This document shows, piece after piece, positions 10,997 through 35,702 of a DNA stretch of 64,000 nt. Positions within the stretch are counted from its first letter, which is position 1. Each line of letters begins with the position of its first letter. The translations under genes were made by a program, and so were the position numbers. Origin of the DNA: an uncultured Bacteroidia bacterium (GTDB lineage Bacteria > Bacteroidota > Bacteroidia > Bacteroidales > Prolixibacteraceae); the NCBI GenBank assembly GCA_903923905.1, contig CAIXZH010000106.1, forward strand, positions 1 to 64,000, given 5' to 3'. The notes beneath the pieces were generated by a model. It saw only the letters and a program-made list of their open reading frames with translations. It made no database searches and was not told where the DNA came from.

Positions 10997-11003
10997 ACCG
11001 AAA

Positions 11004-11052
11004 TTGGAAGTCCGAAGACCGAAAAAAAACACTTCGGTCTTCGGACTTCCAA
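11004..11052. repeat. Perfect 20-bp inverted repeat
   Basis: TTGGAAGTCCGAAGACCGAA (11004-11023) is the exact reverse complement of 11033-11052, with a 9-base loop. It lies between the amidohydrolase stop and the FIST start. There is no T-run, so it is not a classic terminator. It looks like an intergenic palindromic repeat and would fold into a strong hairpin in the transcript, possibly uncoupling the signalling genes from the genes upstream. Confidence 0.8.
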
Positions 11053-11069
11053 CTTCCAACTTTAAAAAT

Positions 11070-12203
11070 ATGATAGCAAAATCAATCCAAGGAAGTTCTG
11101 CTTTAGAAATTAAAACCGCTCTGGAACACAGTATGACTGATGGCTACAAACCTACTCTGGCCTGTGTGTTTATGTCTGTAAAACACGATCGTGAAGCGGT
11201 TAACAAAGTTTTGGATGAAGCAGGTATTGCCATTTATGGAGCCACAACAAATGGAGAGTTTACCGGTGAGGGAATAAGTTCGGGAGAAATTGCAGTGATG
11301 CTGCTCGATATCAATCCTTCATACTTCCACATTGTGTTTGACGAATTTTCAGAAAAAAATTACAGACAAACTACCCGGGCTATTGCAACAAAAGCATTGG
11401 AAAAATTTGCACATCCCTCCTTCCTCATTGCCGGCAGCAACTTAAACACTGATGCGGAGGAACTTTTGCATGGTTTTGAAGACATGCTTGGCACACAGGT
11501 CAATGTGTATGGCGGCATGGCCGGAGATGATTTTGCATTTCTGGAGCAATTTGTGTTTACAAATAATAAATCAAGTAATAACGGTATAGTGGCTATTGTT
11601 CTGGATGAAGACAAAATCAGCATAAAAGGAAGGGCTACCAGTGGATGGAAAGCAGTGGGCACTGAAAAAACGGTTACAAAAAGTGTCGGCAATCAAGTTT
11701 ATACAATTGATGATACTCCGGTACTGGACCTGGTAATGAAGTATGGCGGTCTTGAAAACGTGACAGCGGAAAATTTTGCATTAGAGCATTCTACGACGTT
11801 GAACTTTCAATTACAGAGTGAAACCGGTGACCCCGTGTTGCGCGCCGGGCTTTTGGTTGATTGGAGCGACCATTCCTATTATTGCAGCGGCTCAGTGCCA
11901 CAGGGATCCAAAGTACGGTTTACACTCCCTCCGGATTTTGATGTAATTGAAAAAACAATTAAAGGCAGTGAAGAGTTGAAAGCAACAGAAATACCTGAGG
12001 CTGATGCTCTGTTGTTGTTTAACTGTGCGGGGAGGCTTCTTGCACTCGGACCTTTGATCAGTGAAGAAATAGAAGGAATAAGAAGAGTGTGGGATGTTCC
12101 CATTGCAGGTATGTTCTCCACTGCTGAACTGGCACGTACCACAAACGGAAATTTAGAGATGCATGCGTTTACCGCTTGTACAGTTGTATTGAAAGAAAAA
12201 TAA
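11070..12203 (+). CDS. FIST-domain sensory protein
   Basis: 377 residues. It has a FIST N domain (about 20-215; KPTLACVFMSVKHDREAVNK, GATTNGEFTGEGISSGEIAV, VNVYGGMAGDDFAF) and a FIST C domain (about 220-365; DALLLFNCAGRLLALGPL, VPIAGMFSTAELA). FIST domains are predicted to sense small ligands such as amino acids and usually sit beside signalling proteins. There is no signal peptide, so it is cytoplasmic. The histidine kinase with eight sensory modules starts 7 bases later, so FIST probably acts as a detached input subunit for that kinase. The start at 11070 avoids reading through the inverted repeat. Confidence 0.88.
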   Translation: MIAKSIQGSSALEIKTALEHSMTDGYKPTLACVFMSVKHDREAVNKVLDEAGIAIYGATTNGEFTGEGISSGEIAVMLLDINPSYFHIVFDEFSEKNYRQTTRAIATKALEKFAHPSFLIAGSNLNTDAEELLHGFEDMLGTQVNVYGGMAGDDFAFLEQFVFTNNKSSNNGIVAIVLDEDKISIKGRATSGWKAVGTEKTVTKSVGNQVYTIDDTPVLDLVMKYGGLENVTAENFALEHSTTLNFQLQSETGDPVLRAGLLVDWSDHSYYCSGSVPQGSKVRFTLPPDFDVIEKTIKGSEELKATEIPEADALLLFNCAGRLLALGPLISEEIEGIRRVWDVPIAGMFSTAELARTTNGNLEMHAFTACTVVLKEK

Positions 12204-12210
12204 CTAAATC

Positions 12211-15200
12211 ATGAACCCGAACCTCCAAAAGATTACCGATATTCTTCAGCAAAACGAGCAATTGTCAGTTGAAGAAAGAGCTTCGTTAGCTAAAGCCGTC
12301 AGGGATACCGAAAGCGAGATGGCTATAACTGCCTTCAAGCTAGACCGCACTGAGAAAGTCAAACGCACTACGGCCATTCTTTTGGAGGAAACCATCGAAG
12401 AGCTGGAACATAAGCGGAAAGAGGTTGAGGCACAGAACCGGGAGCTCGAAATTGAATTTTCACTTGAACGGGTAAGAACAGTCGCGATGGGGATGCGCAA
12501 ACCCGGCGACTTGCTGAGCATTTGCGAAATACTGTTCGCAGAACTTCGCAATATGGGTTTCGGCGAACTCCGGAATGCCATGATCAATATCCATAACGAT
12601 GAGAAAGGGTCGTTTCTGAATTATGATTTTTCTGAAACCGGAGGCGCCACAGTTACTGATATTTTATACAACAGCCACCCGGCAACTGAAAGCCTTGTAA
12701 AGCAGATCAGAAAGGCAGAAGATGCTTTTGCAGAAATTGTGATCGACGGCAGTGAGTTGAATGAATCGAGGGAGTACCGTAAAAAGATGAGGGAGCTGGA
12801 TGACCCAAAATTAAATAATGTTTCACTTCTCACCTATTATTTCTTTTCCATTGGTACCGGTTCTATCGGGATTTCAACATATGAGCCGATTTCCGATGAA
12901 AAACGAAACGTTCTGAAGCGTTTCCGCAATGTCTTTGAACTAGCCTATCGCAGATTCCTTGATGTTGCACAGGCGGAAGCTCAGGCCAAAGAAGCAAGGC
13001 TTGAACTGGCACTCGAACGGGTTCGTGCACGGACCATGGCGATGCAGAAAAGTGATGAACTTGGAGAAACTGCCTTTCTCCTTTTTCAGCAGTTTCAGGA
13101 GCTGGGCGAAACACCTGACCAGATTACAATAGGAATCATCAGGGAAGAGGCCAGGTTAATCGAATTCTGGATAACCATTAACGGAAATCAGATAGACCGG
13201 AATGTGGTTGCGTCGGTCGAGGAACCTAATCTGATGAACAAATTATTTGTCGCCTGGAAGGGGAATGAAAAATCAATAGTAATCTCTCTTTCGGGCAAGC
13301 AACTTAGTGATTTTATCTCTTATCGAAAAGAAATAAGCCGCCACATCGAGACTCCTTCACCCGGTCAATATTCAGAGAATCGGAGGGCAGTCCACAGTGC
13401 TTTTTTTTCAAAAGGGTTCATAACTTTTTCTTCAGCTGACCCTAAGCCAACAGAAACTTTGCGGCTGTTGGAACGGTTTGCCGGGGTGTTTGACCAAACC
13501 TATACCCGTTTTCTCGACCTTCAAAAAGCCGAAGCGCAGGCACGTGAAGCACAGATTGAAGCAGGTCTTGAGCGATTCCGTTCACGAATGCTGGGGATGC
13601 AAAAAAGCAGTGATCTGGAAGAAACGACAACCGTGATGCACCAACAAATGAGCGCTCTTGGTATTGTTCCGGAAGGAGCGATAGTGTCAATCGTCCTTAT
13701 CGACAAAAAAACAGATACCGCCATCCAATGGATTGTTTCTGATTCTACGCTTGTCAGACCTCCGGAAGGTGAATTGCGCAGCCCGATGAACGAACATCCA
13801 CAATTAATAATGACCTACGAAGCCTGGAAACGAAAGGAACCTTTGTTGATTCGTGATATCAGCGGGGAAGAAATGGATGATTTCAGGAATTATTTCCTTT
13901 CACTTCCTTCGTTTCAGAAACTCAAATCTGAAATTGACCAATGGCCCGAGCGACTGGTATGGTCGGAGGCATCTTTTTCAAATGGAACACTGGGTCTGAT
14001 TTACACCGCACCTCTCCAACAGCCAACTCTGGATATTCTTGTCCGCTTCTCCAAGGTGTTTGACCTAACCTATACCCGTTTCCTCGATATCCAAAAAGCG
14101 GAAGAACAGGCACGGGAAGCACAGATCCAACTTGCTCTTGAAAGAGTTCGTGCAAGAACAATGGCTATGCAACGAAGTGATGAATTGGCTGAAACTGCCG
14201 CGATATTATTTGAGCAATTCATTGCATTGGGTGAAATGCCGGAAAGGATGGCCATAGAAATTGTGAATGAAGCAGAACATGTTTTTGAAATCTGGGCTAC
14301 TGAGCATGGAGGCAGGCAATTTAATTCAGTGATTAAGACCTCGCTGGATGAACCCTTTGTAATGCAGAAGATGTACATGGCCTGGAAGGAACGGAACAAA
14401 TCGATTACAATTGATCTTCAGGGAAATGAACTGGAAGAGTATTTTCAATTCCTGAAGAAAATGAAACTGCCGGTTGACCGAAAAATATTTGGCAAACGCA
14501 GGGTGCAGAATGTCGCAACCTTCTCCAGGGGAATACTTACAATAATCACCCCTGAACCCCGCCCCCAGGAAACTATTGATATACTGGAGAGGTTTGCCGC
14601 AGTGTTTGATGGCACTTACACTCGTTTTCTCGACCTCCAAAAAGCAGAAGAACAGGGGCGGGAAGCAAAAATTGAAGCTGCACTTGAAAGAGTAAGGTCA
14701 CGCAGTATGGGTATACACAAAAGTGAAGAATTGGTTGAAGTCGTTCGGCTTCTTGATAAGGAAATAAACAGATTGGGAGTAGAAGTGAACGGCTCGCAAA
14801 TATTAACTGATTTTGCCAATCCGGAAGAAGGTGTGAATGATTGGTTTGCCGTGGAGGGACAGGATTACCTTGAAAAATTTCATATTCCTTATTTAGAACA
14901 TCCCCTTACAAAAAAGATCTATAATTCCTTGCATGACGGTGTTGGTTTTTATACTGAGAATTATTCAAAGGTTGAAAAAAACAAGTATTTCAGGCTGCTG
15001 TTCAAATACTCCGATTTTAGAAAGGAGCCTAAAGAAAGACAGGAATTTCTCTATCATTCACCCGGATGGACTCGGGCCTATGTGCTATTTAAAAACTCTT
15101 TATTGATTTTTCAACGGTTTAATCTTAAGGAATTTACCAAGGAAGAAGAGGGAATTCTCAAACGATTCGGAAAAGTTTTTGAGCAAACCTATACACGTTT

Positions 15201-17745
15201 TCTCGATCTGCAAAAAGCCGAAGCACAGGCACGTGAAGCGCAAATCGAAGCAGCATTGGAACGGGTGCGTTCTCGTTCGCTGGCCATGCATAAAAGTGAT
15301 GAACTTCAGGAAGTAGTAAACACTGTGCATGCCAGTTTGGTAGAGCTTGGCGTCAAAATGGATTCAGCCAACTTCAACATCTTGTATGATGGTTCACGTG
15401 ATATGGACTTGTGGATTGCAAATATCTATTCACAACGCATTCACGTTCCTTATTTAGATCGCAAACCTGTTCGGGATATGATGGATGCCCGTGACCAGGG
15501 AATTACCTCGCTCCAGGTTGCATGCACTCAGGAGCAAAAGAATATCTTTTGGAAGGAAGCTTTTGAAACAACGGGATTCAGCGTTGCTTCAGCAGAAAGG
15601 AAAAAGTTTATTCTGGAGAGTAAATGCGGGACTGTCTTGTGGGCGTTGGCAAAGCATTGTGGCATTCAATTAAATAGCTATTCACGTGATTCGTATACTC
15701 TGGAGGAAGTTGAGATTACGAAACGATTTGCCAATGTTTTTGAACAAGCCTACGTTCGATTCCTCGATTTGCAAAAAGCAGAGGCTCAAGCTAAAGAAGC
15801 ACAGATTGAAGCTTCCCTTGAACGCGTGCGAAGCAAAACCATGGCCATGCACAATAGCCAGGATGTAGGTGATACGGTTTCATCCATGTTAGATGAACTG
15901 GTTAAGCTGGGTGTCGAAACAAACCGCTGCGGGATATTGATCTATAGCGATACGATGACCGCTGAAGTCTGGACGGCAAAGTCAAAACCGGAAGGAAAGG
16001 CTACTTTAACAATGGGTCAACTGGATCTGGCAGTTCATCCCCTTCTCTCCGGAATATATCAGGCATGGAAAAACAAACAACCATTATTTACTTACACAAT
16101 GGTTGGTAAGGATTTAGTAGCCTATTACAAGGCAATCAACGAAACTAAATATTATCCGACTAGTTTTGAGATGAATACTTTGCCTTCAAAAGAATTTCAC
16201 AGTGATTTCTATTTTGCGGAAGGCTCTATTTTTGCCTTTACAGCTGAGCCTATACCTGCGGTAGCTACAATGATCTTTAAAAGGTTTGCAGGTGTTTTCG
16301 GCCAGACCTACAGGCGTTACCTTGATTTGCAAAAGTCAGAAGCAAATGCCATTGAAGCCATAAGACGTTCTTCTCTTGATCGGGTCCGTGCTGAAACTGC
16401 CTCCATGCGTACTACCGATGATCTGGAACGGATCACCCCTTTAATCTGGAACGAACTTACAACACTTGGCGTTTCGTTTACACGATGCGGCGTTTTTATT
16501 ATGGATCAACAGCAGGAACAGATACATACTTTTTTATCGACACCTGATGGTAGGGCAATTGCTGCATTTCATCTCCCTTATGATACCGCACAAACCACAT
16601 TCCAAAATCTGGTTGAATATTGGCAAAAGAGACAAATTTATAAAGAGCACTGGGATGAATCAGCATTTATAAACTGGACCAGAAACCTGGTAAAATCAGG
16701 CGTTATAGCACCATCTGAAAAATATGTTACGGGAGATCATCCAACAAAACTGGATTTGCACTTCCTTCCGTTTTTACAGGGGATGTTGTATGTAGGCAAT
16801 GACACACCATTGAATGACGATGATTTGCACCTGGTGCAAAATCTTGCCGATGCCTTCTCCACCGCCTATGCCCGTTATGAAGATTTCAACAAACTGGAGT
16901 CGGCCAAAGCACAGATTGAAAAAACGCTGGTTGATCTGAAGCAAGCCCAGGCACAGTTGGTGCAAGCGGAAAAAATGGCCTCGCTTGGAGAACTCACCGC
17001 AGGCATTGCCCATGAAATTCAAAACCCGCTCAACTTCGTGAATAACTTCTCGGATGTGAATAAAGAGCTTATTGATGAAATGCAGCAGGAAATGGATAAC
17101 GGAAACCTGGCAGACGCAAAAGCCATTTCAAATGATATCAGGGAGAACGAACAAAAGATAAACCACCACGGCAGACGTGCCGACGCTATTGTAAAGGGGA
17201 TGCTTCAACATAGCCGTAGCAGCAACGGCATTAAAGAACCAACAGATATCAATTCCCTGGCTGATGAATATTTGCGTCTGGCTTACCATGGCTTGCGTGC
17301 AAAAGACAAGTCGTTCAATGCGATAATGAAAACTGATTTTGATGAAACAATCGGGACCATCAATATTATTCCTCAGGATATTGGTCGGGTGATTCTCAAT
17401 CTGATTACCAATGCGTTTTATGCGGTGAAAGCCCCCCTGCCCCCCGAAGGTGGGTTTAAAGACCCATCAATCAAACATGAACCGACGATTTGGGTGACTA
17501 CAAAAAAAGTTGGGGATATGGTTCTGATTGCTGTCCGGGATAATGGTCCCGGGATTCCAAAGAAAATTCTCGATAAAATATTTCAACCCTTTTTTACAAC
17601 CAAGCCAACCGGACAAGGAACTGGTTTAGGATTGTCACTGGCATACGATATTGTAAAAGCGCATGGCGGGGAGTTAAAGGTGGAGACGAAGGAAGGCGAG
17701 GGTTCGGAGTTTTTTATTTCGCTACACTATTCGACTAATATTTAA
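12211..17745 (+). CDS. Giant cytoplasmic histidine kinase with eight tandem sensory modules
   Basis: 1844 residues with no signal peptide or membrane segment. A coiled coil (about 45-85) leads into eight repeats of 182-191 residues starting near residues 84, 266, 451, 641, 823, 1014, 1201 and 1387. Each begins with a helix of the type ALERVRSRTMAMQKSDEL and ends with RFAxVFxQTYTRFLDLQKAEAQAREAQIE, so a charged signalling helix joins each module to the next. The module cores look GAF-like but are weakly conserved. The kinase follows: dimerisation box LTAGIAHEIQNPLNFVNNFS (phosphoacceptor His about 1601), N-box RVILNLITNAFYAV, DNGPGIP, and GTGLGLSLAYDIVKAHGG. There is no receiver domain. It is coupled to the FIST gene; the next kinase starts 8 bases after it. 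Confidence 0.9.
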   Translation: MNPNLQKITDILQQNEQLSVEERASLAKAVRDTESEMAITAFKLDRTEKVKRTTAILLEETIEELEHKRKEVEAQNRELEIEFSLERVRTVAMGMRKPGDLLSICEILFAELRNMGFGELRNAMINIHNDEKGSFLNYDFSETGGATVTDILYNSHPATESLVKQIRKAEDAFAEIVIDGSELNESREYRKKMRELDDPKLNNVSLLTYYFFSIGTGSIGISTYEPISDEKRNVLKRFRNVFELAYRRFLDVAQAEAQAKEARLELALERVRARTMAMQKSDELGETAFLLFQQFQELGETPDQITIGIIREEARLIEFWITINGNQIDRNVVASVEEPNLMNKLFVAWKGNEKSIVISLSGKQLSDFISYRKEISRHIETPSPGQYSENRRAVHSAFFSKGFITFSSADPKPTETLRLLERFAGVFDQTYTRFLDLQKAEAQAREAQIEAGLERFRSRMLGMQKSSDLEETTTVMHQQMSALGIVPEGAIVSIVLIDKKTDTAIQWIVSDSTLVRPPEGELRSPMNEHPQLIMTYEAWKRKEPLLIRDISGEEMDDFRNYFLSLPSFQKLKSEIDQWPERLVWSEASFSNGTLGLIYTAPLQQPTLDILVRFSKVFDLTYTRFLDIQKAEEQAREAQIQLALERVRARTMAMQRSDELAETAAILFEQFIALGEMPERMAIEIVNEAEHVFEIWATEHGGRQFNSVIKTSLDEPFVMQKMYMAWKERNKSITIDLQGNELEEYFQFLKKMKLPVDRKIFGKRRVQNVATFSRGILTIITPEPRPQETIDILERFAAVFDGTYTRFLDLQKAEEQGREAKIEAALERVRSRSMGIHKSEELVEVVRLLDKEINRLGVEVNGSQILTDFANPEEGVNDWFAVEGQDYLEKFHIPYLEHPLTKKIYNSLHDGVGFYTENYSKVEKNKYFRLLFKYSDFRKEPKERQEFLYHSPGWTRAYVLFKNSLLIFQRFNLKEFTKEEEGILKRFGKVFEQTYTRFLDLQKAEAQAREAQIEAALERVRSRSLAMHKSDELQEVVNTVHASLVELGVKMDSANFNILYDGSRDMDLWIANIYSQRIHVPYLDRKPVRDMMDARDQGITSLQVACTQEQKNIFWKEAFETTGFSVASAERKKFILESKCGTVLWALAKHCGIQLNSYSRDSYTLEEVEITKRFANVFEQAYVRFLDLQKAEAQAKEAQIEASLERVRSKTMAMHNSQDVGDTVSSMLDELVKLGVETNRCGILIYSDTMTAEVWTAKSKPEGKATLTMGQLDLAVHPLLSGIYQAWKNKQPLFTYTMVGKDLVAYYKAINETKYYPTSFEMNTLPSKEFHSDFYFAEGSIFAFTAEPIPAVATMIFKRFAGVFGQTYRRYLDLQKSEANAIEAIRRSSLDRVRAETASMRTTDDLERITPLIWNELTTLGVSFTRCGVFIMDQQQEQIHTFLSTPDGRAIAAFHLPYDTAQTTFQNLVEYWQKRQIYKEHWDESAFINWTRNLVKSGVIAPSEKYVTGDHPTKLDLHFLPFLQGMLYVGNDTPLNDDDLHLVQNLADAFSTAYARYEDFNKLESAKAQIEKTLVDLKQAQAQLVQAEKMASLGELTAGIAHEIQNPLNFVNNFSDVNKELIDEMQQEMDNGNLADAKAISNDIRENEQKINHHGRRADAIVKGMLQHSRSSNGIKEPTDINSLADEYLRLAYHGLRAKDKSFNAIMKTDFDETIGTINIIPQDIGRVILNLITNAFYAVKAPLPPEGGFKDPSIKHEPTIWVTTKKVGDMVLIAVRDNGPGIPKKILDKIFQPFFTTKPTGQGTGLGLSLAYDIVKAHGGELKVETKEGEGSEFFISLHYSTNI
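17431..17457. repeat. C/G-rich repeat inside kinase ATPase domain
   Basis: A C/G-rich block encoding APLPPEGGF lies in the loop after the N-box of the giant kinase. It resembles the C-rich/G-rich palindromic repeats scattered in Bacteroidota genomes. Related sequences lie in the kinases at 32.2 and 33.6 kb. Confidence 0.4.
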
Positions 17746-17753
17746 CAAATCGT

Positions 17754-20700
17754 ATGAAGAAAATAATTTTTATCGCATTTATTCTTTGTTCAATTGGACT
17801 GCAGGCTCAGTTCAGAAAGCCTTATTTTAATACTATGTCAGCCGAAAACGGTCTGCCTGAAGCAAATATTTTGTGTTCTCTTCAGGATAAACCTGGTTAT
17901 TTATGGTTTGGCACCCAAAACGGATTGGTTCGGTATGATGGGTATCGATTGAAGCAATACCCGATGCCCGATGACAAAGGAAATCCCATTGTTTTTTGCC
18001 AAGTTGAATTTTTGCATGAAGATAAAAACGGTATCATTTGGGCGAATATTACCCGTGAAGGATTGTTTTGTTTCGACCGTCAAAAGGATGCTTTTTTTAA
18101 AGCTCCTTTCGATACTGCTACGCTGTCAACCTTTAAGAATTCGTTGATCTTCAATTGGGTTGAGGATAAAGTTAATGGCATGGACTTGTTTTTGCTTCAG
18201 AATAACCAAAGTAACAAATTGGAAATAGTTGTACATCATCAGAAAGAAAATCATTTTGAAATCTATAATTCTGCTGGAAAGGGGAAATATCATCTTCCTG
18301 TTGTAAACAGTATCGATTTGACACAGGATGTGTCCGGCAGAATATGGGTGGCATCCGACAGCCTGATTAACCGTTATGATCCTGAAACCAGATCGATGAT
18401 TCCCAATCAGGTATTGCCCGATCTCAGCAAACAATATATGATCGATGTTATGACTCCCGATCCGAATGATGCGGATGTCATCTGGATAAACGCTCTATTT
18501 CTGGAAACTCCTCCTTCAGCAACTCCAAAGCCACGGAAAATCTTTAAAATAAATACGAAGACCAATGAAAACAGGATTATTGATCCGGATAAAAATGACC
18601 CCACGAAATTGTCTGATTTCTGTATTCATGTATTTACTGACTCTTTGAAAAGGGTTTGGTTCAGCACCTTAAAAGGGATCTCAAGATACAATCCGGAGAC
18701 CGGAACTGTAACTAATTTTCCGTTAAGCCTGCCAACCTCGTTGAACAGCGAGAAAACACATATCGAAGCAATTGCATCGGATAATGAAGGGAATCTTTGG
18801 ATGGGTGGCTATTTTAAAGGTTTGGTTTTTCTGAATACAGAAACCGCAAGTACTTCGATGTACAAACACAGCAGTGAAGCGGGCAGCCTGCCTGATCACA
18901 ATGGAATTAACCGGGTATTCTTTGACCAGACCGGAACCTTATGGTTGAATATGCCCTTCACGGGTATTGCCTCATTGGACCGGCAAAAATCCATGCTCAA
19001 TCCGATTATCATCGATCCGCCAACTTCACGAAAACCAGGTAAAAAAACTGAAGACGAATACTACATTCATGGGAAATACGGTGACAATAGTTTTTTTGTA
19101 AAAGATACTACCGGTCTGTTCATCTGGAATTTACAGGAAAACAGCTATCAGAAAATTGACCTTCAAAATCACAAAATCTACAAGCAAATCACATCAGTAA
19201 TCGACGATAACGAAGGTCTGGTCTGGATTTCCACAGTTGCGTCCGGCTTATATTCTTATAATCTGAGGTCCGGAAAGCTTATCAATTACCGGAATATTCC
19301 GAATGACAGTTTATCGCTGAGCAGCAATTTCATTACCGGTATGACAGAAGATAAGAACCATAACTTGTGGATTGGCACCCGAAATGACGGAATATGCAGG
19401 TATAGCAAGGCCAGTGGAACATTTTCCAGATATCCGTTTAAACAGAATATTTTAAAGGTTAAAACGAAAAATGCACTTGACGACGGAAATGTTCTGTCGA
19501 TGGTTTTCGATACTAATGGAAATCTATTCGTAGGAACAAATCAAGGCGGGATTAACCAGCTGAATATTGAAACCGGCGAATTCAAATCTATTGTTGATTA
19601 TCCTTCAGGTCTGGTCTGTGTCATCAGTATATACCGTGATAGTCATCAGCGGTTATGGGTTGGTACTTATCTTTCAGGCCTATTTTTAGTTGATCTGAAT
19701 TCCGGTAGTTTTAAAAGGTATTCAGAGAAAGACGGTTTGCTTTTCAATTCGGTTATTGGTATTAATGAAGATCAGGAAGGCAATATATGGACTTCTTCCC
19801 CAAGAGGTTTATCAAGGCTAAATCCTGAAACGAATCATTTTACGAATTTCAAAACCTCCATACTGATTTTCAATTTTAATTGGTCTGATATTTTCAAAGA
19901 TGCAGAAGGGAATTTTCAAATTCCGGTAAAAAGCGGATTAATATCTTTCAATCCGAATCGGATTAATATGAGCCGGATACCGCCTTTGGTAACTATCGAA
20001 TCGGTGACTTATCAATCGTCGGCCAGCAACAAAGACAGTGTTTTTTACACTGAAGGACGGCAAAAAAAAGAACTGAAACATAACGAAAATAAGATCAGTT
20101 TTCAGTTTGTAGCTCTCCATTTTGAAAATCCGGCGAACAATAGTTATTCCTGCAAATTCGATGGAGTTGACAAGGATTGGGTGCAGATTGGAACTCAACG
20201 TACAGTCACTTACAATAATCTTTCGCCCGGCACTTATATTTTTCATGTAAAGGCCGGTAATAGTGATGGATATTGGAATGATCAGGGTGCAGCATTTACA
20301 TTGACCATTTTGCCTCCGTGGTGGGAAACATGGTGGGCATATAGCGCTTATTTGTTGATTTTTATAGTAGGATTATATGGTTTTGATCGCTTTATGCGCC
20401 GAAGACTTATTCAACGTGAACGTGAGCGATCGAGGGAGATGGAATTGACTCAGGCCAAAGAAATTGAAAAGGCCTATACGGAGTTAAAATCCACCCAATC
20501 CCAATTGATCCAATCCGAAAAAATGGCTTCATTGGGAGAGCTCACCGCTGGGATTGCCCATGAAATACAGAATCCATTGAACTTCGTCAATAATTTCTCG
20601 GAAGTAAACAGAGAGTTATTAGTGGAAATGAAGGATGAACTTAAAAAGGGAAATCTTGATGAAGTCAATGCTATTGCTGATGATATTATAGGAAATGAAG

Positions 20701-21323: not shown

Positions 21324-21372
21324 ATAAATTGTAAGGACTTAAAATGATTGATAAACTTAACTATTCAAGAAA

Positions 21373-22758: not shown

Positions 22759-22771
22759 AATATTATAAACA

Positions 22772-23623: not shown

Positions 23624-23625
23624 AG

Positions 23626-26600: not shown

Positions 26601-28986
26601 GCACTCTCCGCTTATCCGATGGAGATTAAGTTATACGGTATTAAGCTTTTATAACCACTGGAAAATTCCAATCCGCGATGGTTATGATAACATGCTGGAG
26701 ACGATTAAAGCGTGTGTGCTCAATGGCGACCATATTTTTACGGGTTATTCTGTGGCATTGTATTTAAGATCAAGGTTTGTCGCCGGAGAAAACCTCAAAG
26801 TGATTATAGATAGTTCTGAAGAACATTTATCCTTGATTAGAAATGGCAAGGGGGGGCTCGATTTTTTTCAGTGCTTTTATCAATTGGCAAAATCATTAAA
26901 CGGGCAAACTACCGGCAATTGCTGGGATGACTCTACTTTTAACAGCGCTGAGACTTTGGAACGTCTAAATCTGGAAGGGAATAATACAAAACTGGCATTT
27001 TTTCATTCGGCAAAGTGCTATCATTGTTACTTTCTGGGAGATTATAGCGAGGCACTTGCAGAAAGTCAGCGGGTGCTTGCCTATTCCGCCAATTTTCTTG
27101 GAGATATACTGGAAGTATTTCATGCTTTTTTCACTTCACTTTCTATATCTTCCCATTTTGAAGCTATGAATCCCGGAGAGAAAAAGAAATCCCTGAAAGT
27201 ATTTCAAAAGCATTTTCAAGACATGAAACATTGGACCAAAGGATGCTCTGAAAATTACAGTCAACATTATTATTTGTTACAGGCTGAACTGTTTGCGATA
27301 AACGACAAGGTTGAAAAGGCCTTGCAATTCTATGAACAGGCAATAAAAATGGCTTCAAAGAACGGAATTATCTATGTGGAAGCCATAGCCAATGAAAGAG
27401 CTGCTTTACTCTGTTCCAAAAAACAATTAATTAAACAAAGTCAGATATACCTTAATGATGCCTGGGAAGCTTACAATATCTGGGGAGCAGAAGCTAAATG
27501 CAATCAATTAGAAAATTCCTATCCGGCCTTAGCAAGAGCTAAATCCAATTCCCGGGGAAGTGAGCAATCCGGATTCTCAGCAAATACCTCTGTCTCCAGT
27601 AAAACAGCACTCGATCTGGCCAGTGTTTTAAAGGCTTCCCAGAGTATTGCAAGTCAGGTAAAATATGCTGATCTGCTTAAGAATTTAATGCATATTACCA
27701 TCGAGAATGCAGGTGCTGAAAGAGGATGTTTACTACTTTCCAAAGGTGATCAGCTTTGTATTGAAGCAGTAGGTATTACTGGTTCCGACGACATCGAGAT
27801 ACTTCCTTCGGTTCCCCTAAATAAAATGAATATAGTGCCAAATTCAATTTTGAACTATTGCTGGCGTTCTGAAGAAACTGTTATTGTCAATGACGCTCTC
27901 AATGAAGAGCGTTTTCGTTCTGACCCATATATTCAGAATAATGGAATATTATCTGTGATGTGTCTTCCAATCACTGCCAAAGGAAGAATTAATGGATTAT
28001 TGTATCTTGAAAATAGTCTTTTAAAAGGTGTTTTTAATAAAACCAGAATCGAACTTTTACAAATGCTATCCGGTCAAATAGGAATTGCCATCGAAAATTC
28101 AATCCTGTATGAGAATCTGGAGGAAAAAGTATCAGAAAGAACCCAGGAAATTGGAAAAGCATATACTGAGCTTAAAGCGGCTCAGGCACAACTCATTCAG
28201 TCCGAAAAAATGGCATCGCTTGGAGAACTCACTGCCGGTATTGCCCATGAGATTCAAAATCCGCTGAACTTCGTCAATAATTTTTCAGAAATAAACAGTG
28301 AATTAATTGATGAATTGAAGCAGGAAATTGAAAAGGGTAATCTGGATGGGGTAAAGGCGATTGCAAATGATATTGGGGAAAACGAACAAAAAATAAATCT
28401 CCATGGCAAAAGGGCCGATGCCATAGTAAAGGGGATGTTGCAACACAGTCGCACTAATAGCGGTGCAAAAGAACCTACAAATATTAATGCCCTGGCCGAT
28501 GAATATCTGCGTCTCTCTTATCATGGACTCAGGGCAAAAGACAAATCTTTCAATGCCACGATGAATACCGATTTTGATGAGACAATCGGGAAAATTAACC
28601 TGATTCCTCAGGACATTGGCCGGGTAATTCTAAATCTGATCAATAATGCATTTTACGCAGTAAATGAAAAAAAGAATCAACTTTCAAAAGACCTTTCAGG
28701 TTTAGAAAACCCGAAAGGTCTCCATCCTTACGAACCTACAGTTTGGGTAGGGACCCGGAGAACAAAAAACAAGGTTGAATTGTTTGTGAAAGATAACGGT
28801 AATGGCATACCGCAAAATGCGCTGGATAAAATCTTTCAACCCTTTTTTACGACCAAACCTACCGGCCAGGGAACAGGTTTGGGACTGAGTATGAGTTATG
28901 ATATTGTGAAAGCGCATGGAGGTGAACTGAAAGTGAAGAACAAAGAGGGCGAAGGAGCTGAATTTAAAATTGAACTTGCTTTGTAA
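23626..28986 (+). CDS. Ser/Thr kinase - AAA ATPase - GAF - histidine kinase fusion
   Basis: 1786 residues from ATG 23626, 2 bases after the methyltransferase stop. Order: Ser/Thr protein kinase (about 10-270) with VIHKDINSSNL (catalytic Asp132) and LLDFGIS (Asp150), both intact; AAA-type ATPase (about 300-600) with Walker A GYSGVGKSAL (about 331-340) and Walker B VIFLDDLQWAD; a long helical TPR-like region (about 650-1290); GAF domain (about 1340-1490); then a kinase core with His about 1541 and GTGLGLSMSYDIVKAHGG. This is the trifunctional kinase architecture known from cyanobacteria and others, where ATPase and TPR parts are thought to act as a signalling scaffold. Cytoplasmic, no receiver. 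Confidence 0.92.
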   Translation: MKSSEFIHKDYTILKSLFKNERNEIILANRLLDNQKVVLKQSILLNENILKISKLGHEYDVLKDLNHTGIPRVYGILYDGKTVALVQEYIEGTDLRKLIFEKKINLKQALEIAIQLADILQYIHQKGVIHKDINSSNLMITSDGALKLLDFGISSNLYLETNEILNVDQIEGTLVYISPEQTGRTEYSVTQSCDFYSFGVLMYELLAGKPPFDSIDPLEVIHFHLSRNPVPLSLIIPDLPKGLDQVIAKLMEKNPDDRYHSAAGLKSDLVAIMKHFLSKEPLINFKAGLNDITEQYKQSQKLYGREEERNELLGYYKNLNQLKSMLVLVAGYSGVGKSALIRHIKFPIIQSKGTFISGKFDQFKKDIPYYAFIEAIQEFIKNLLSESDDKISAWRDRIVYILGENAGLITEVIPQLEKIIEKQPAVLKLQPAEQEARFHMVLLDFIYVFSTSESPLVIFLDDLQWADLSSLNLVKRILENPRLENILILGAYRDNEVEKGHPLLITLKQIYESNCLVKVIQLNPLSQETTGQIIIDSFGMEKARAKVLGKHVFAKTKGNPFFIHSFLKSLYDKKLVKKDPVESWIWDQKEIDELGYTDNVIDLMTEGLVNLPQHTQEVLKYAAVLGNTFNLADLADITEESQLQVYNDLKPALNGSYLNSIDKRYRTLALSSLNTDYDIEQQLSGETAQFTFSHDKVQQAAYSLIDSGELPLTHLRIGRLLLLNRDESQLQEGIFELLNHFIISSHLIENKVEKIRITELCLIAGRRAKDSTSYSLGVHFLAVAKDLLGENSWISSYELTFNVLFELGECEYLNDNPIIAEQYFKEVLGYSKTNFEKLRVYYVHSSLYLKIGNTSESLRLGLEAAKLYNIRFPENRRAIQVATLLTMAKYLCLFYAKYRNPEPLYHLKDCKDEEIIALNKFLIDLATSAYQQDQNLMMLVIFKIVKLYLKEGFTDASGWGFSGFSVVVLSALKMQKKGFNLWNITMKLHQRTHSPLIRWRLSYTVLSFYNHWKIPIRDGYDNMLETIKACVLNGDHIFTGYSVALYLRSRFVAGENLKVIIDSSEEHLSLIRNGKGGLDFFQCFYQLAKSLNGQTTGNCWDDSTFNSAETLERLNLEGNNTKLAFFHSAKCYHCYFLGDYSEALAESQRVLAYSANFLGDILEVFHAFFTSLSISSHFEAMNPGEKKKSLKVFQKHFQDMKHWTKGCSENYSQHYYLLQAELFAINDKVEKALQFYEQAIKMASKNGIIYVEAIANERAALLCSKKQLIKQSQIYLNDAWEAYNIWGAEAKCNQLENSYPALARAKSNSRGSEQSGFSANTSVSSKTALDLASVLKASQSIASQVKYADLLKNLMHITIENAGAERGCLLLSKGDQLCIEAVGITGSDDIEILPSVPLNKMNIVPNSILNYCWRSEETVIVNDALNEERFRSDPYIQNNGILSVMCLPITAKGRINGLLYLENSLLKGVFNKTRIELLQMLSGQIGIAIENSILYENLEEKVSERTQEIGKAYTELKAAQAQLIQSEKMASLGELTAGIAHEIQNPLNFVNNFSEINSELIDELKQEIEKGNLDGVKAIANDIGENEQKINLHGKRADAIVKGMLQHSRTNSGAKEPTNINALADEYLRLSYHGLRAKDKSFNATMNTDFDETIGKINLIPQDIGRVILNLINNAFYAVNEKKNQLSKDLSGLENPKGLHPYEPTVWVGTRRTKNKVELFVKDNGNGIPQNALDKIFQPFFTTKPTGQGTGLGLSMSYDIVKAHGGELKVKNKEGEGAEFKIELAL
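28689..28721. repeat. 33-base palindromic element in coding sequence (copy 2, best preserved)
   Basis: AGACCTTTCAGGTTT (28689-28703), loop AGA, AAACCCGAAAGGTCT (28707-28721): 14 of 15 positions pair. It encodes DLSGLENPKGL in the same loop of the ATPase domain as in the neighbouring kinases. Confidence 0.8.
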
Positions 28987-29002
28987 TCAATATAATTAAA
29001 AT

Positions 29003-32000
29003 ATGCAAAATAGGGTCTCCCAATCTGTTTTTTGTTTTCTTTTCTCCTTGGCTATTGGCGGCTTTGCCCAGTCCCGACAGGTATATTTCAACCCGATCCT
29101 GGGAAACGATGGCATAATTTTAGGTAAGATCAATAGTATTACCCAGGACCCGCAGGGTTATATCTGGCTTTCAGATCAGGATAACCAATGCATTATCAGG
29201 TATGACGGCACACGGATGACCAGTTTCAAATCTGATCCGAAAAATTCCAACTCACTGGGAGGATCCTATCCTGAATACCTTTATGCCGATCATTCGGGCA
29301 TACTTTGGATTGGATTCTACGGAAAGGGGCTTGACCGGTTAGATCCTGAAACGGGCAATTTTACCCATTTCCGGCATAAACAGGATGATCCATTCAGCCT
29401 GAGCAACGATACGGTGGCATCAATCCTGACAGATCATGAAGGGACTCTTTGGATCGGCACCTACGGTGGCCTGGATCGCCTCGACCCGAAAACCGGCAGA
29501 TTCACCCATTTTGCTCATTCGGCTACTGATCCGGTGAGTCTGAGTTGTAATACGATACGTAAGATTTATGAAGATCATGAAGGGACGCTTTGGATTGGAA
29601 GCGGAAACCCATTCGCAGGGAATAACGAAGGTGGGCTTAACCGTTTCGACCCAAAAACCGGGAAGTTTACCCGCTATATGCATAACCCTGATGATCCAAA
29701 TAGCCTGATCAATAATAAAGTCAGGGCTATTTTTGAGGACAGCAGGGGAACTTTCTGGATCGGTGCAGCCGGTGATAACGGAATTCTTACCATGGACCGC
29801 TCCAAGGGCACCTTTGAACGCCATCTTTACGATCCTAAGAAGCCTGAACAATTGAGCCGCCAACCGGTTAAGAAAGGCGATAAATTTGACCATATCACCT
29901 TTATTACCGAAGATGGTAAAGGGTCCATCTGGATTGGAACATTTTCGGAAGGGCTTATTCAGTACGACCCTGCAACCCGGAAAATGAAACGGTTCACCAG
30001 CACCGAAAATATAACTTCCGGATTTAAAGACGATAGCGGCTGGTGTTCCCTGGTTTCCAAAGAAGGTGTTATTTGGATAAGCACCCAGGAAAAGAATCTC
30101 TATAATGTTGATCCCTTTCGAAACAGTATCCCTCATTTTAAAGCTCCCCAGGTAAATTGTCTTTGTGAAAACTCCAATTCAATCCTTTGGTACGGCACTG
30201 ATAATCAGGGTCTTTTCAGTAAAGACCTGAAAACAGGAGTCATACATCAATACAAAAACGATCCGCGGGATAAGAATAGCCTCAGTTCCAACAATGCCAA
30301 TACACTTTTTAAAGACACAGCCGGTGATCTTTGGATCGGTTCGTGGGGCGGCGGAGTTAGCCGGATGAATAAGGGTACTAAAAATTTCACCCGTTTTGCA
30401 CACGATCCAAAGAACAGTAAAGGTCTGATTTCGAATTATGTAATTTCAATTTACCAGGATCATGAATCTAATCTTTGGATAGGAACGACTGAGGGATGCG
30501 ATCTGCTGGAACCCAAAACAGGCTACTTCAGGCATTACCTGAATAATCCTAAGGACACCAACAGTATCAGCCGGAATACCACCACCTGTTTCCTGGAAGA
30601 CAGTCAGAATAATTTTTGGGTGGGGACCTGGGGTGGCGGTGGAGTAAATCAAATGAACCGGCAGACCGGCAAATTTAAACATTACCTGATTGATAAATCT
30701 ATATACAGCTTGTGTGAAGATTCAAAGGGGGTCGTATGGGTGGGCACAGGAAACGGCATTTTTCAATTCAACAAAAAAGTAGACAGATTCGAATTGCTTG
30801 ATGAGAAGATTACCGGATTTAATATTCCCTATGTATGGGGAATAGCTGAAGATCATCGGAATAATCTTTGGTTTTGCTCTGCATCGGGACTGATCAGCCT
30901 TAATCCCGAAAGGAATAAACTTAGGATTTATGGAAAGAAAAATGGTATTAATGGAAATAGCCTGACCTATGGTGCAGGCTATATCGGTGCCAATGGAAAT
31001 CTGTATTACGGGAATGTCGATGGCTACTATTTTTTCCATCCGGACAGCCTGAATTACAATCCTGTTCCGCCGTCAGTAGTGATAAATTCTTTCTGGGTTA
31101 CTGGAAAGCAGATAAAACCTGAATCCGGAGGACCTATGCAGGAACCGCTCTCCAAAGCCGGGGAGATTAACCTGAGCCACGACCAAAATGTCTTTGCCCT
31201 TGGTCTTTCCGACATAGACTTTGGAAATCCCGAGGAGGATAAAATTATTTACCGGCTGAAAAATTTTGACCGCGACTGGACTTCTTTGGGTTCGGAGGGG
31301 AAAGCCGCTTATTATGATGTGCCTCCGGGCAAATATACCTTTGAGGTTAAAGCGATCAACAGCAATAATGGGGTATGGGTTGAAAAGTCTGTTGAACTGA
31401 TCATTTCACCGCCATTCTGGAGAACCTGGGTGGCCTATATCCTTTATGGCCTTTTATTCATTGCCGGTGTATTTGGTGTGGATCGATTCCAGCGGAAACG
31501 CTTATTGAGGGCAGAAAGGGAAAGGAACCGCGACAGGGAACTTGCCCAGGCCAAAGAGATTGAAAAAGCCTATACCGAACTACAGACGACACAAGCCCAG
31601 CTTATCCAATCCGAAAAAATGGCCTCACTGGGTGAACTTACGGCAGGTATTGCCCACGAAATTCAAAATCCATTGAATTTTGTCAATAATTTTTCTGAGG
31701 TCAATAAAGAATTAATCGCTGAGATGAGGACAGAAATTGACAGGGGTAACATGGCTGAAGTAAAAGCAATCGCAATGGATATCGAAGAGAATGAAGAAAA
31801 AATCCTTCAGCATGGGAAACGGGCAGATGCCATTGTGAAGGGAATGTTACAACATAGCCGCAGCAGCTCCGGAATTAAGGAGCCAGCCAATATAAATGCC
31901 ATTGCTGATGAATATTTACGATTGGCCTATCATGGCTTAAGGGCCAAAGATAAATCATTCAATGCAACAATGAAGACAAATTTTGATCAATCTATTGGGT

Positions 32001-32431
32001 ATATCAACATTATTCCACAGGACATTGGACGAGTGATTCTCAATTTAATAACCAATGCATTTTATGCCGTTGACGAGAAAAAGAAAACTTTAGACCTTCG
32101 AGGTTTTGAAAACATTGAAGATCTGTCCATATACGAACCCACAGTCACTGTTCAGACTTCGCGGTTACCCCCTTTGGAGAGAGGGGGAGTATTGGCCATA
32201 AATGATGTCAGTGTATCTAAAGTTTTACTTTCTGTAAAAGATAATGGCAACGGGATACTCCAAAAAAATCTGGACAAAATTTTTCAGCCTTTCTTTACAA
32301 CCAAACCTTCAGGTGAGGGAACAGGGCTGGGTTTATCATTGAGTTACGAAATAATAACAAAAGGTCATAGCGGAGAGTTGAAAGTTATTACAAAAGAGGG
32401 TGAATTTACAGAATTTATTATAATCTTGTAG
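29003..32431 (+). CDS. Propeller/Y_Y_Y sensor histidine kinase (second)
   Basis: 1142 residues. Signal peptide (cut near GGFAQ), then propeller repeats of unusually regular form (about 25-690; DHEGTLWIGTYGGLDRLDPK, GRFTHFAHSATDPVSLSCNT and further copies, about 50 residues each). Then come a Y_Y_Y domain (about 730-800), a membrane helix (about 812-830) and a kinase core with His about 885. It lacks receiver and HTH domains like the first propeller kinase, but the sensor halves differ, so the two probably see different ligands. It starts 16 bases after the fusion kinase. Confidence 0.9.
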   Translation: MQNRVSQSVFCFLFSLAIGGFAQSRQVYFNPILGNDGIILGKINSITQDPQGYIWLSDQDNQCIIRYDGTRMTSFKSDPKNSNSLGGSYPEYLYADHSGILWIGFYGKGLDRLDPETGNFTHFRHKQDDPFSLSNDTVASILTDHEGTLWIGTYGGLDRLDPKTGRFTHFAHSATDPVSLSCNTIRKIYEDHEGTLWIGSGNPFAGNNEGGLNRFDPKTGKFTRYMHNPDDPNSLINNKVRAIFEDSRGTFWIGAAGDNGILTMDRSKGTFERHLYDPKKPEQLSRQPVKKGDKFDHITFITEDGKGSIWIGTFSEGLIQYDPATRKMKRFTSTENITSGFKDDSGWCSLVSKEGVIWISTQEKNLYNVDPFRNSIPHFKAPQVNCLCENSNSILWYGTDNQGLFSKDLKTGVIHQYKNDPRDKNSLSSNNANTLFKDTAGDLWIGSWGGGVSRMNKGTKNFTRFAHDPKNSKGLISNYVISIYQDHESNLWIGTTEGCDLLEPKTGYFRHYLNNPKDTNSISRNTTTCFLEDSQNNFWVGTWGGGGVNQMNRQTGKFKHYLIDKSIYSLCEDSKGVVWVGTGNGIFQFNKKVDRFELLDEKITGFNIPYVWGIAEDHRNNLWFCSASGLISLNPERNKLRIYGKKNGINGNSLTYGAGYIGANGNLYYGNVDGYYFFHPDSLNYNPVPPSVVINSFWVTGKQIKPESGGPMQEPLSKAGEINLSHDQNVFALGLSDIDFGNPEEDKIIYRLKNFDRDWTSLGSEGKAAYYDVPPGKYTFEVKAINSNNGVWVEKSVELIISPPFWRTWVAYILYGLLFIAGVFGVDRFQRKRLLRAERERNRDRELAQAKEIEKAYTELQTTQAQLIQSEKMASLGELTAGIAHEIQNPLNFVNNFSEVNKELIAEMRTEIDRGNMAEVKAIAMDIEENEEKILQHGKRADAIVKGMLQHSRSSSGIKEPANINAIADEYLRLAYHGLRAKDKSFNATMKTNFDQSIGYINIIPQDIGRVILNLITNAFYAVDEKKKTLDLRGFENIEDLSIYEPTVTVQTSRLPPLERGGVLAINDVSVSKVLLSVKDNGNGILQKNLDKIFQPFFTTKPSGEGTGLGLSLSYEIITKGHSGELKVITKEGEFTEFIIIL
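32092..32124. repeat. 33-base palindromic element in coding sequence (copy 3)
   Basis: AGACCTTCGAGGTTT (32092-32106), loop TGA, AAACATTGAAGATCT (32110-32124): 12 of 15 arm positions pair. It encodes DLRGFENIEDL. Confidence 0.7.
32167..32189. repeat. C/G-rich palindromic repeat in coding sequence
   Basis: CCCCCT (32168-32173) pairs with AGGGGG (32182-32187). It encodes LPPLERGG in a loop just before the G1 box (VKDNG). This type of C-run/G-run palindrome is frequent between genes in Bacteroidota; here it is in frame inside a kinase. Confidence 0.55.
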
Positions 32432-32455
32432 TGTCAAAAAACTAAACCAAATTTT

Positions 32456-33853
32456 ATGTCACTTTCTGTTGCTCCCCTGGTTGTTAGTTTGATTGTTACG
32501 AATCGAATCAGAAAATATGTCAGGACAAGTATTCTGAAGCATTGGGAGCAACCTCTTAAATATGCATTGTTCCTTTCTGTCATGCTTTTTGCCGCTGAAG
32601 TTATTTTTTCCGAAACAGAGGTCATCAAATGGGTCTGGCATGCCTACCTGATTGCCATTATTGTCTTTGCCCTGAAACAGGATGAATTACGACTGCTTCG
32701 AATGTTCATTGTGGCATTTATCCCTTTTGAACTTTTCTCCTTGTTGGGTGATTTGACACAATTGATTAATGATAGTTTTTTTAAGGATCATGAAAATTAC
32801 TTTAATAATGCGACCGGCTTTTCATTTTTTTGGATGGCAGCCATCCTATACAGCCAAAACAGGCAATTTAAGGCAGCTGAAAAAGAACGAATTAAAAGAC
32901 AACACGAAGATGAACTGAACCGTGCAATTGCAATCAGAAAGGTGGAACTCGAAGTATTGGTCGCTGAACGAACTTCGGAACTGACCGAACAGAAAGAGGA
33001 ACTGGAAAATGCCCTGGATGAGTTACGCGCTACCCAAACTCAACTCATCCAATCGGAAAAGATGGCTTCCCTGGGTGAACTTACTGCAGGAATTGCACAT
33101 GAAATTCAAAATCCGCTCAACTTCGTTAATAATTTCTCCGAAGTAAATGCAGAACTAATTGAAGAGATGCAGGAGGAGATTGAAAAAGGGAATATGGATG
33201 AAGTCAAAGCCCTTGCCAAAGATATTGCCGATAACGAACAAAAGATAAAACACCACGGGAAACGGGCAGATGCTATTGTAAAAGGGATGTTACAGCATAG
33301 TCGCAGCAACAGTGGGATCAAGGAACCGACAAACATTAATGCATTGGCAGATGAATATCTGCGCTTGGCTTACCATGGTTTGAGGGCAAAGGATAAATCG
33401 TTCAATGTAACCATGGAAACCCATTTTGACAAAAGTATTATCAGTGTCAATATCATTCCTCAGGATATGGGTCGTGCAATTCTTAACCTGATTACCAATG
33501 CATTCTACGCAGTAAATGAAAAAAATAAACTGCAAAGGGACATTGAAAGATCTGAAAACCGGCAAGGTCTCCCGCCATACCAACCCACCGTTTCATTGAG
33601 AACTTCCAGGATCTCTCCCACAAAGGGAGTAGCGGGAAAAGTTAAGATTTCGGTCAGGGATAACGGCAACGGTATTCCTCAAAACGCATTGGATAAAATA
33701 TTTCAGCCATTCTTTACAACTAAACCGACAGGTGAAGGAACCGGACTTGGATTATCATTAAGCTATGATATTGTGAAAGCACATGGTGGCGAGTTGAAAG
33801 TGGATACCAATGAGGGCCAGGGGGCTGAGTTCTCAATTATTTTACCAGTTTAA
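32456..33853 (+). CDS. Membrane-bound sensor histidine kinase
   Basis: 465 residues. Three to four hydrophobic segments (about 37-55, 59-76, 84-101, 120-136) form an N-terminal membrane sensor with no extended periplasmic domain. A coiled coil (about 137-200) and the shared kinase core follow, with His about 215 in IAHEIQNPL, N-box RAILNLITNAFYAV and GTGLGLSLSYDIVKAHGG. The smallest of the five kinases and nearest to the receiver gene (16 bases), so it is the most likely direct partner of that receiver. The sensed signal is unknown. Confidence 0.88.
   Translation: MSLSVAPLVVSLIVTNRIRKYVRTSILKHWEQPLKYALFLSVMLFAAEVIFSETEVIKWVWHAYLIAIIVFALKQDELRLLRMFIVAFIPFELFSLLGDLTQLINDSFFKDHENYFNNATGFSFFWMAAILYSQNRQFKAAEKERIKRQHEDELNRAIAIRKVELEVLVAERTSELTEQKEELENALDELRATQTQLIQSEKMASLGELTAGIAHEIQNPLNFVNNFSEVNAELIEEMQEEIEKGNMDEVKALAKDIADNEQKIKHHGKRADAIVKGMLQHSRSNSGIKEPTNINALADEYLRLAYHGLRAKDKSFNVTMETHFDKSIISVNIIPQDMGRAILNLITNAFYAVNEKNKLQRDIERSENRQGLPPYQPTVSLRTSRISPTKGVAGKVKISVRDNGNGIPQNALDKIFQPFFTTKPTGEGTGLGLSLSYDIVKAHGGELKVDTNEGQGAEFSIILPV
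33538..33570. repeat. 33-base palindrome-derived element in coding sequence (copy 4, decayed)
   Basis: GGACATTGAAAGATC (33538-33552), loop TGA, AAACCGGCAAGGTCT (33556-33570). Only about 8 of 15 arm positions still pair, but length, loop and encoded peptide DIERSENRQGL line up with the other copies. Confidence 0.5.
33613..33631. repeat. C/G-rich palindromic repeat in coding sequence
   Basis: CTCCC (33615-33619) pairs with GGGAG (33625-33629). It encodes the ISPTKGV stretch before the G1 box, the same place as the C/G-rich repeat in the preceding kinase. Confidence 0.4.
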
Positions 33854-33869
33854 ATTTAATATTCAGAAA

Positions 33870-34241
33870 ATGAAGATTTTAGTAGTTGACGATGAACGGG
33901 ATATTCAGACACTTTTTGAACAAAGATTCAGAAAAGAAATTAAAGAGAAATCGATGGAATTTGCATTTGCCTTTTCCGGGGAAGAGGCCCTGACCTACCT
34001 TAACCTGCATGAACATGAAACCGTATTGATCTTGTCCGATATCAATATGCCCGGGATGAGCGGATTAGAGCTGCTTCGCCAAATAAAGGAGAAATATCTA
34101 AAGCCGCCACCAGTGGTAATGATTATCACAGCATATGGCGATGCTGAGAGTTTTGATAAAGCCAAACAGCTTGGGGCTGACGATTTTCTAACTAAACCTG
34201 TCGATTTTACCTATTTAAAAGAGAAATTTAAACAATCATGA
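33870..34241 (+). CDS. Receiver-only response regulator (CheY-like)
   Basis: 123 residues, a single receiver domain with all key residues: acidic pair D7/D8 (VVDDE), phosphoacceptor D57 in LILSDINMPGMSG, T87 in IITAYG and K109 in FLTKPVD. It has no output domain, so it must act through protein contact or pass phosphate onward. ATG 33870 is chosen because the longer frame overlaps the kinase and lacks domain sequence. It is the last gene of the 11-34 kb block and the only receiver in it, making it the candidate common target of the five kinases. Confidence 0.9.
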   Translation: MKILVVDDERDIQTLFEQRFRKEIKEKSMEFAFAFSGEEALTYLNLHEHETVLILSDINMPGMSGLELLRQIKEKYLKPPPVVMIITAYGDAESFDKAKQLGADDFLTKPVDFTYLKEKFKQS

Positions 34242-34400
34242 ATAATCATCTGATCGGCAAGGAGCATTTGAAATAATACTGATTCAACAGCTGATTCTGA
34301 ATTCCGGGTTAAATAGAGCTTAGAATTCGTATAATGAATTTACTGGTATAACTCAGCTGCAATTTTATCATCTCTTGATTAATGAAAGGCGGTCTTAAAT

Positions 34401-34985: not shown

Positions 34986-34995
34986 AATCTATTTT

Positions 34996-35688: not shown

Positions 35689-35696
35689 GATCAAAT

Positions 35697-35702
35697 CCTC
35701 CT
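35697..35702 (-). promoter_or_regulatory. Strong Shine-Dalgarno site
   Basis: AGGAGG on the minus strand, 8 bases before ATG 35688. It decides the nitroreductase start and is unusual for Bacteroidota. Confidence 0.75.

Follow-up and report, generated by a model that had tools for sequence, protein, structure and literature searches.

A block of five histidine kinases and one stand-alone receiver in a Prolixibacteraceae genome, a probable cyclase-less form of a widespread Bacteroidota signalling module

The window analysed here is a 64,000-nucleotide (nt) stretch of contig CAIXZH010000106.1 from an uncultured Bacteroidia bacterium of the family Prolixibacteraceae (assembly GCA_903923905.1; genome G000, to which all contig labels beginning with C refer). 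It carries, at 11070–34241 on the + strand, a block of nine genes that encode five histidine kinases (HK1–HK5) and a single stand-alone receiver. We consider it probable that this block represents one lineage's own version of a module widespread in Bacteroidota, in which the receiver acts as a bow-tie hub similar to MrrA of Caulobacter and from which a class III cyclase has been lost. The arrangement itself is real and conserved, while the idea that the kinases are integrated by the receiver is plausible and partly supported.

All nine open reading frames are intact and are separated, in order, by 7, 8, 49, 13, 2, 16, 24, and 16 bases, so that the original prediction of nine co-directional genes with spacers of 2–49 bases holds with its coordinates. 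Pfam domains also agree with the contents it had listed, namely a FIST protein, five histidine kinases, an oxygenase, a methyltransferase, and one receiver. Specifically, HK1 (12211–17745, 1844 amino acids (aa)) is an eight-module kinase, as determined by Pfam and repeat comparison; HK2 (17754–21323, 1189 aa) and HK4 (29003–32431, 1142 aa) are propeller kinases; HK3 (23626–28986, starting at ATG 23626) joins a Ser/Thr kinase, an AAA domain, and a GAF domain to a histidine kinase (Pfam Pkinase, AAA_16, GAF); and HK5 (32456–33853, 465 aa) has hydrophobic N-terminal segments. HK2 and HK4, formerly described as two propeller types, turn out to have an identical Pfam make-up of Reg_prop and Y_Y_Y. 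HATPase_c and HisKA were found in all five kinases, with HisKA under the curated cut-off in four of them, and the H-box is present in each. Response_reg is absent from all five, as had been claimed, and occurs only in the last gene of the block, the CheY-like receiver (33870–34241, 123 aa), whose predicted phospho-acceptor residue D57 is indeed in place.

To this single receiver correspond several kinases in most of the related genomes that carry it. Among 41 genomes, a close receiver (68–100% identical) occurs once each in six (G000, G010, G011, G012, G013, and G024), and residues D8, D57, T87, and K109 are invariant in the six orthologs. Kinase cores of at least 67% identity number 6 in G000, 5 in G010, 4 in G011 (a genome 64% complete), 2 in G012, 8 in G013, and 1 in G024; hence several receiver-less kinases and one close receiver are found together in five of the six, with G024 having a single kinase. 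Within G000 itself, six cores (69–100%) face one receiver, and the next receivers are only 53% and 46% identical, both belonging to receiver-SpoIIE proteins on C93. The sixth core lies outside the block (C113:11407–12207, 73% identical to HK5), directly followed by a receiver remnant with in-frame stops (L083 12217–12337), a decayed stand-alone receiver. All of the 29 such cores compared share one and the same phospho-acceptor stretch, an H-box of 23 residues. Many-to-one integration, as originally predicted, is thus favoured in part by a single close receiver per carrier genome with up to 8 kinases and one H-box; the part that fares less well is the receiver as sole partner, since it is normally paired with a receiver-cyclase, and two genomes discussed below have such kinases and no close receiver.

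The five catalytic cores had been described as almost the same, which overstates their likeness: they are 70.5–76.8% identical, with silent sites saturated. Fourfold sites of the core paralogs agree at only 14/55 to 27/58, near random, and the longest common DNA run is 27 nt; the five cores are therefore old paralogs rather than near-copies, and gene conversion or recent duplication is ruled out as the source of their similarity in the window. Across G000 and its kin, the mean identity is 73.2% for 61 pairs of same-genome paralogs, 71.8% for 50 pairs of same-input orthologs, and 71.5% for the 295 pairs of neither kind. The remaining kinases of the genus behave differently: aligned as a control that includes one G000 core (L085) incomplete at the end of the fetched stretch, they show 66–82% among orthologs and 32–46% among paralogs in G000. 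Such equal likeness whatever the relation of the cores fits a common partner. The cores group neither strictly by genome nor strictly by input type. Two other features of these kinases were observed. Unlike inserts interrupt a variable HATPase stretch in all five, and those of HK1 (17419–17496) and HK4 (32156–32209) contain GC-rich, near-palindromic DNA. Additionally, kinase-like proteins encoded near receiver-SpoIIE genes (L085 1–3447, with orthologs in L186, L188, and L190) have GIVDRILNPLN at the position of the 11-residue stretch that holds the phospho-acceptor histidine in the cluster kinases, and so lack this histidine; this His-less type is kept in G000, G010, G013, and G014.

The wider context of the receiver was obtained from a scan of named genomes with the six receivers as queries, in which the best 80 of 506 loci were evaluated. 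These 80 loci come from several Bacteroidota families, plus Chlorobi/Ignavibacteria, KSB1, Rhodothermia/Balneolia, cyanobacteria, and one Methylobacterium; cultured relatives with both hub and receiver-cyclase are available in Algoriphagus, Hymenobacter, Aequorivita, and Mucilaginibacter. A receiver-class III cyclase directly follows the receiver in 59 of the 80, and a kinase core of the block type directly precedes it in 62, the position that HK5 occupies in the window. At least two co-directional cores precede the receiver in 30 loci, and another receiver lies within the run in 2; the first count is a minimum, as 30 of the 80 runs extend to the edge of the fetched sequence. The pairing recurs among 294 other, evenly sampled Bacteroidia genomes, for each of which scoring was limited to the top 15 or 7 candidates: 12 carry a close receiver, all 12 of these have a receiver-cyclase 8–126 bases away, and 4 of the 282 genomes without a close receiver have a receiver-cyclase. 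Behind the receiver of both G012 and G024 come a 343-aa receiver-class III cyclase and then a YitT/HD membrane protein. Since the nearest solved relatives of the cyclase domain are adenylate cyclases, the product is likely cyclic AMP (cAMP), as judged from this homology. As a side observation, the gene that immediately follows the receiver-cyclase (L091 11103–12563, L092 11675–13135) encodes an HD + YitT + DUF2179 membrane protein, which has similar counterparts in many of the 80 loci and is possibly a part of the cyclase pathway.

Some loci depart from this pattern. Three receivers with no neighbouring cyclase (L125, L128, and L140) have, elsewhere in their genomes, a second receiver with a 63–65% receiver-cyclase; no close receiver-cyclase was found elsewhere in the genome of L153. 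The cyclase is replaced directly behind the receiver by a receiver-SpoIIE protein in four of the 80 loci (L167, L171, L174, and L175), and in Scytonema by a receiver-PAS-AAA protein.

The two receivers of the module appear to share a kinase-contacting surface. Helix 1 is the usual kinase contact of receivers. The complete set of its residues D11, L15, Q18, F20, and R21 is found in 73 of 82 stand-alone receivers and in 57 of 61 receiver-cyclases, as well as in 4 of 6 receiver-SpoIIE proteins; it is found in none of the other G000 receivers, of which only 11 were left for comparison after exclusion of own-genome loci by hand (L039, L044, L060, and L062) and of others by length. Beyond T87, hub and effector receivers are unlike each other. 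This pattern of residues suggests a single kinase type that reads both receivers, whose outputs differ. A quick receiver tree, built on too few columns for good resolution, needs only two label changes for the stand-alone receivers.

The window lacks this cyclase. No gene lies between the receiver and the convergent isochorismatase-domain gene, and the short spacer 34242–34400 stands where most relatives have the receiver-cyclase gene. PF00211, the class III cyclase family, gave no match in G000, so that a copy elsewhere in this genome was also rejected, nor in G010, G011 (64% complete), or G013. Within the genus it was found in G012 and, with a stop, in G014; in the receiver-carrying G012 and G024 the class III cyclase is present and adjoins the receiver. 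The window lineage thus seems, from these profile matches, to have lost the cyclase while keeping the sensors and the hub, and because the stand-alone receiver is normally paired with the missing receiver-cyclase, the solitary state of the receiver stems in part from loss. The receiver of G000 differs from that of G011 with a proportion of nonsynonymous differences (pN) of 0.05 and of synonymous differences (pS) of 0.73; among the cyclase-less G000, G011, and G013, pN is 0.05–0.13 at a pS of 0.73–0.83, which is saturated. Judged by these proportions, the receiver is under purifying selection despite the absence of the cyclase, and the bare receiver therefore seems useful on its own. Three Hpt matches were found in G000 (on C31, C67, and C101), none of them near the block, and a relay through one of these Hpt proteins is conceivable.

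Several observations weigh against the shared-hub reading. The equal likeness of the cores could also reflect an old radiation held at a constraint plateau, with no common partner involved. The core tree is poorly resolved, good support being limited to 6 of its 27 inner branches, and it mixes lines of input type with one same-genome group (G013). The cyclase is not directly behind the receiver in 21 of the 80 loci, and 16 of the 80 have no kinase core in the run or none at all, 15 of the 80 having zero cores in the co-directional run. Two incomplete genomes, G002 (82% complete, two cores) and G017 (78%, one core), contain kinases and no close receiver was found in them. The partial scoring of the class sample and the small set of comparison receivers count on the same side, and the neighbourhoods across relatives indicate that the pathway did not ancestrally end at the stand-alone receiver.

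These points leave room for three other explanations. The block could be a loose cluster of separately acting old paralogs, where the receiver serves the adjacent HK5 only, as an ordinary two-component pair, and the other kinases have their partners elsewhere. The kinase directly before the receiver is in fact its most constant neighbour, an HK5-like kinase stands there in 21 of the 80 loci, and a single kinase is found in many loci (24 of the 55 with a receiver of at least 60% identity). Yet the multi-core runs that hardly ever contain another receiver, the single close receiver in genomes with 4–8 such kinases, and the one H-box common to all 29 cores speak against separate partners, and we regard this explanation as rather unlikely. 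The kinases could also signal mainly to the receiver-SpoIIE phosphatases encoded on C93, with the stand-alone receiver as a phosphate sink. Here the nearest other receivers of G000 are precisely these two proteins, SpoIIE does take the cyclase position behind some hubs, and the five-residue signature of helix 1 is complete in most receiver-SpoIIE rows; however, such proteins also occur in genomes with no hub (G005, G014, G015, G020, G022, G036, and G040), and in G015, G020, and G036 one of them adjoins its own kinase, whose core is 56–57% identical, which makes the sink explanation an improbable one.

The third explanation is that the module became functionless after the cyclase was lost and is now a decaying remnant. 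It would account for the missing cyclase, for the decayed second receiver copy behind the C113 kinase, and for HK3 being split into two frames in G011 (L090 7000–11999, which may be a frameshift or an assembly error). We find it very improbable, given that the catalytic residues of the receiver are kept, that its replacement changes stay few at saturated silent sites in the three cyclase-less genomes, and that all nine frames of the window are open. A shared receiver hub that has lost its cyclase partner hence remains the reading we prefer.

The sensory end of the block begins with the FIST-domain protein (11070–12203, 377 aa), in which Pfam finds FIST N and FIST C, encoded beside the histidine kinase HK1. 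Eight kinases of the fetched loci contain the whole of the segment formed by the first 84 residues of HK1 (N84, 12211–12462). Six of them immediately follow a FIST gene, one is separated from it by an intervening phosphoenolpyruvate (PEP) mutase-like gene (L093 7783–8664, in G013), and one lies at a contig end. FIST occurs in 6 of the 80 named loci, and all six have an N84-type kinase behind the last FIST gene. By analogy with what the accessible text on NosP and NahK describes (PMC11784011), we propose that N84 is a FIST-coupling segment. The FIST protein as NosP itself is not supported, since it scores 37.1 bits against the NCBIfam equivalog cut-off of 450. Following N84, HK1 contains eight tandem modules of 168–177 aa (12463–16890), with mutual identities of 12–47% and the pattern LERVR...FLDLQ; 26 proteins of related loci have 1–15 copies, some cut by contig ends. 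No known domain could be assigned convincingly to this module. Against Pfam, 51 modules gave a best E-value of 0.0085, with GAF models at ~0.07 for one module each, and in a profile search against PDB designed TIM barrels reached E 0.002, their E-values for single stretches being 8 or more, which we take as chance.

Between HK2 and HK3 lie an MpaB/Lcp-type oxygenase-domain protein (21373–22758, 461 aa; PF09995, MPAB_Lcp_cat) and a S-adenosylmethionine-dependent methyltransferase (22772–23623, 283 aa; Pfam methyltransferase domains). The search for the gene order in related genomes, proposed with the original prediction, revealed partial orders that are conserved: oxygenase-methyltransferase-HK3 is kept in five genomes (G000, G002, G010, G012, and G013), and HK3-HK4-HK5-receiver in G000, G011, and G013. 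G010 has an oxygenase-methyltransferase-HK3-HK5 block that lacks the receiver; its sole close receiver is encoded on a different contig, after a single propeller kinase, so that four of its five kinases are off the receiver contig, which likewise favours a shared receiver.

A 24-nt inverted repeat (11000–11056; 96% complementary, 9-nt loop) between FIST and the co-directional M20 peptidase gene upstream marks the left boundary of the block, and the convergent isochorismatase-domain gene marks the right one. This gene opens an opposite-strand stretch (34401–43406) with isochorismatase, nitroreductase, an ordinary HAMP kinase with an OmpR-type regulator, and an RND efflux set. An OmpR-type receiver unrelated to the hub is encoded at 37085–37765. 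No RNA genes were found in the window. The Bacteroidota-type promoter motif TTTG..TANNTTTG has no + strand match inside the block. A sigma-70-type scan of 23500–34500 returned 41 sites against 26.7 (standard deviation (s.d.) 4.4) in shuffles and decides nothing on internal promoters, and a terminator scan of 10900–23700 returned 16 against 11.4 (s.d. 3.7) and likewise decides nothing on transcript ends.

In the mechanism that we propose for the hub, the nine genes would be expressed on one transcript, and FIST would act on HK1 through the N84 segment. Several sensor kinases with a common core type would each phosphorylate the stand-alone receiver at D57. The hub gene of most relatives directly precedes that of its effector, which joins a second receiver to a class III cyclase, and the response would be a cyclic nucleotide, probably cAMP; the phosphate probably reaches this second receiver from the same kinases, directly or via the adjacent kinase. 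As the cyclase is gone from the window lineage, its output may be protein contact of the bare receiver, or transfer of the phosphate to another receiver or Hpt protein. The parts of this scheme read from sequence are the gene order, the domains, the receiver-cyclase neighbourhood, the lack of a cyclase match, the purifying selection, and the common helix-1 signature. More tentatively, the module may be a modular bow-tie, whose conserved knot is the receiver with an interchangeable kinase family, and whose sensors and effector (cyclase, SpoIIE phosphatase, PAS-AAA protein, or none) have been exchanged in evolution. The window lineage would then amount to a natural experiment, with the effector enzyme deleted and the hub kept under selection, and some output would have to come from the bare receiver itself. 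If the scheme is true, FIST, propeller, Ser/Thr-kinase, and repeat-array sensors are joined via one small receiver to a cyclic-nucleotide cyclase in a pathway widespread in Bacteroidota, and genomes with and without the cyclase offer a direct test of the own action of a single-domain receiver and of the number of kinases per receiver. Within the open-licence literature searched, we found no description of such a Bacteroidota kinase-receiver-cyclase pathway.

Known systems resemble the block in different respects. In the Spo0F phosphorelay of Bacillus, several kinases feed one stand-alone receiver, from which a Spo0B-type transferase passes the phosphate to the DNA-binding Spo0A; the convergence of several kinases would be alike. 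Kinases and receiver are clustered here, and neither an Spo0B-type transferase nor Spo0A was found, though no search was aimed at them. CyaC-type adenylate cyclases of cyanobacteria have a receiver-kinase-receiver-cyclase layout. The relatives' module contains the same elements, a kinase, two receivers, and a class III cyclase, as CyaC, a protein covered in the review PMC4284465 and in the reference list of PMC1183210. CyaC is however one protein, whereas Bacteroidota use separate genes and several kinases, and the window genome has no cyclase; accordingly, no protein of the CyaC layout was found in the block or in G000. In the cyanobacterial locus L161, a stand-alone receiver (61%) precedes a receiver-PAS-kinase-receiver-cyclase protein.

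At the level of the inputs, NosP is a FIST-type sensor encoded beside the histidine kinase NahK that it regulates, according to the available part of PMC11784011. The window shares this adjacency, and differs in that its FIST protein falls far short of the NosP equivalog. HstK/cbSTKIII proteins of cyanobacteria, as defined in the accessible part of PMC2176072, have an N-terminal Ser/Thr kinase, a GAF domain, and a C-terminal His kinase. HK3 has this make-up, but it comes from Bacteroidota and would be joined with four other kinases to a shared receiver; a kinase of HK3-like make-up also precedes a stand-alone receiver in Scytonema (L159). The closest counterpart in mode of action is MrrA of Caulobacter, a single-domain receiver that is proposed as the central knot of a bow-tie, is phosphorylated by at least six kinases, and passes the phosphate on via another kinase protein, as reported in the available text of PMC5964349. 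Like MrrA, as portrayed there, the window receiver is a stand-alone protein with a phospho-acceptor Asp that is accompanied by several kinases having no receiver of their own. By the same partial account, MrrA is alphaproteobacterial and targets PhyK/PhyR, whereas in the block the kinase genes stand next to that of the receiver, and the effector of the relatives is a receiver-cyclase.

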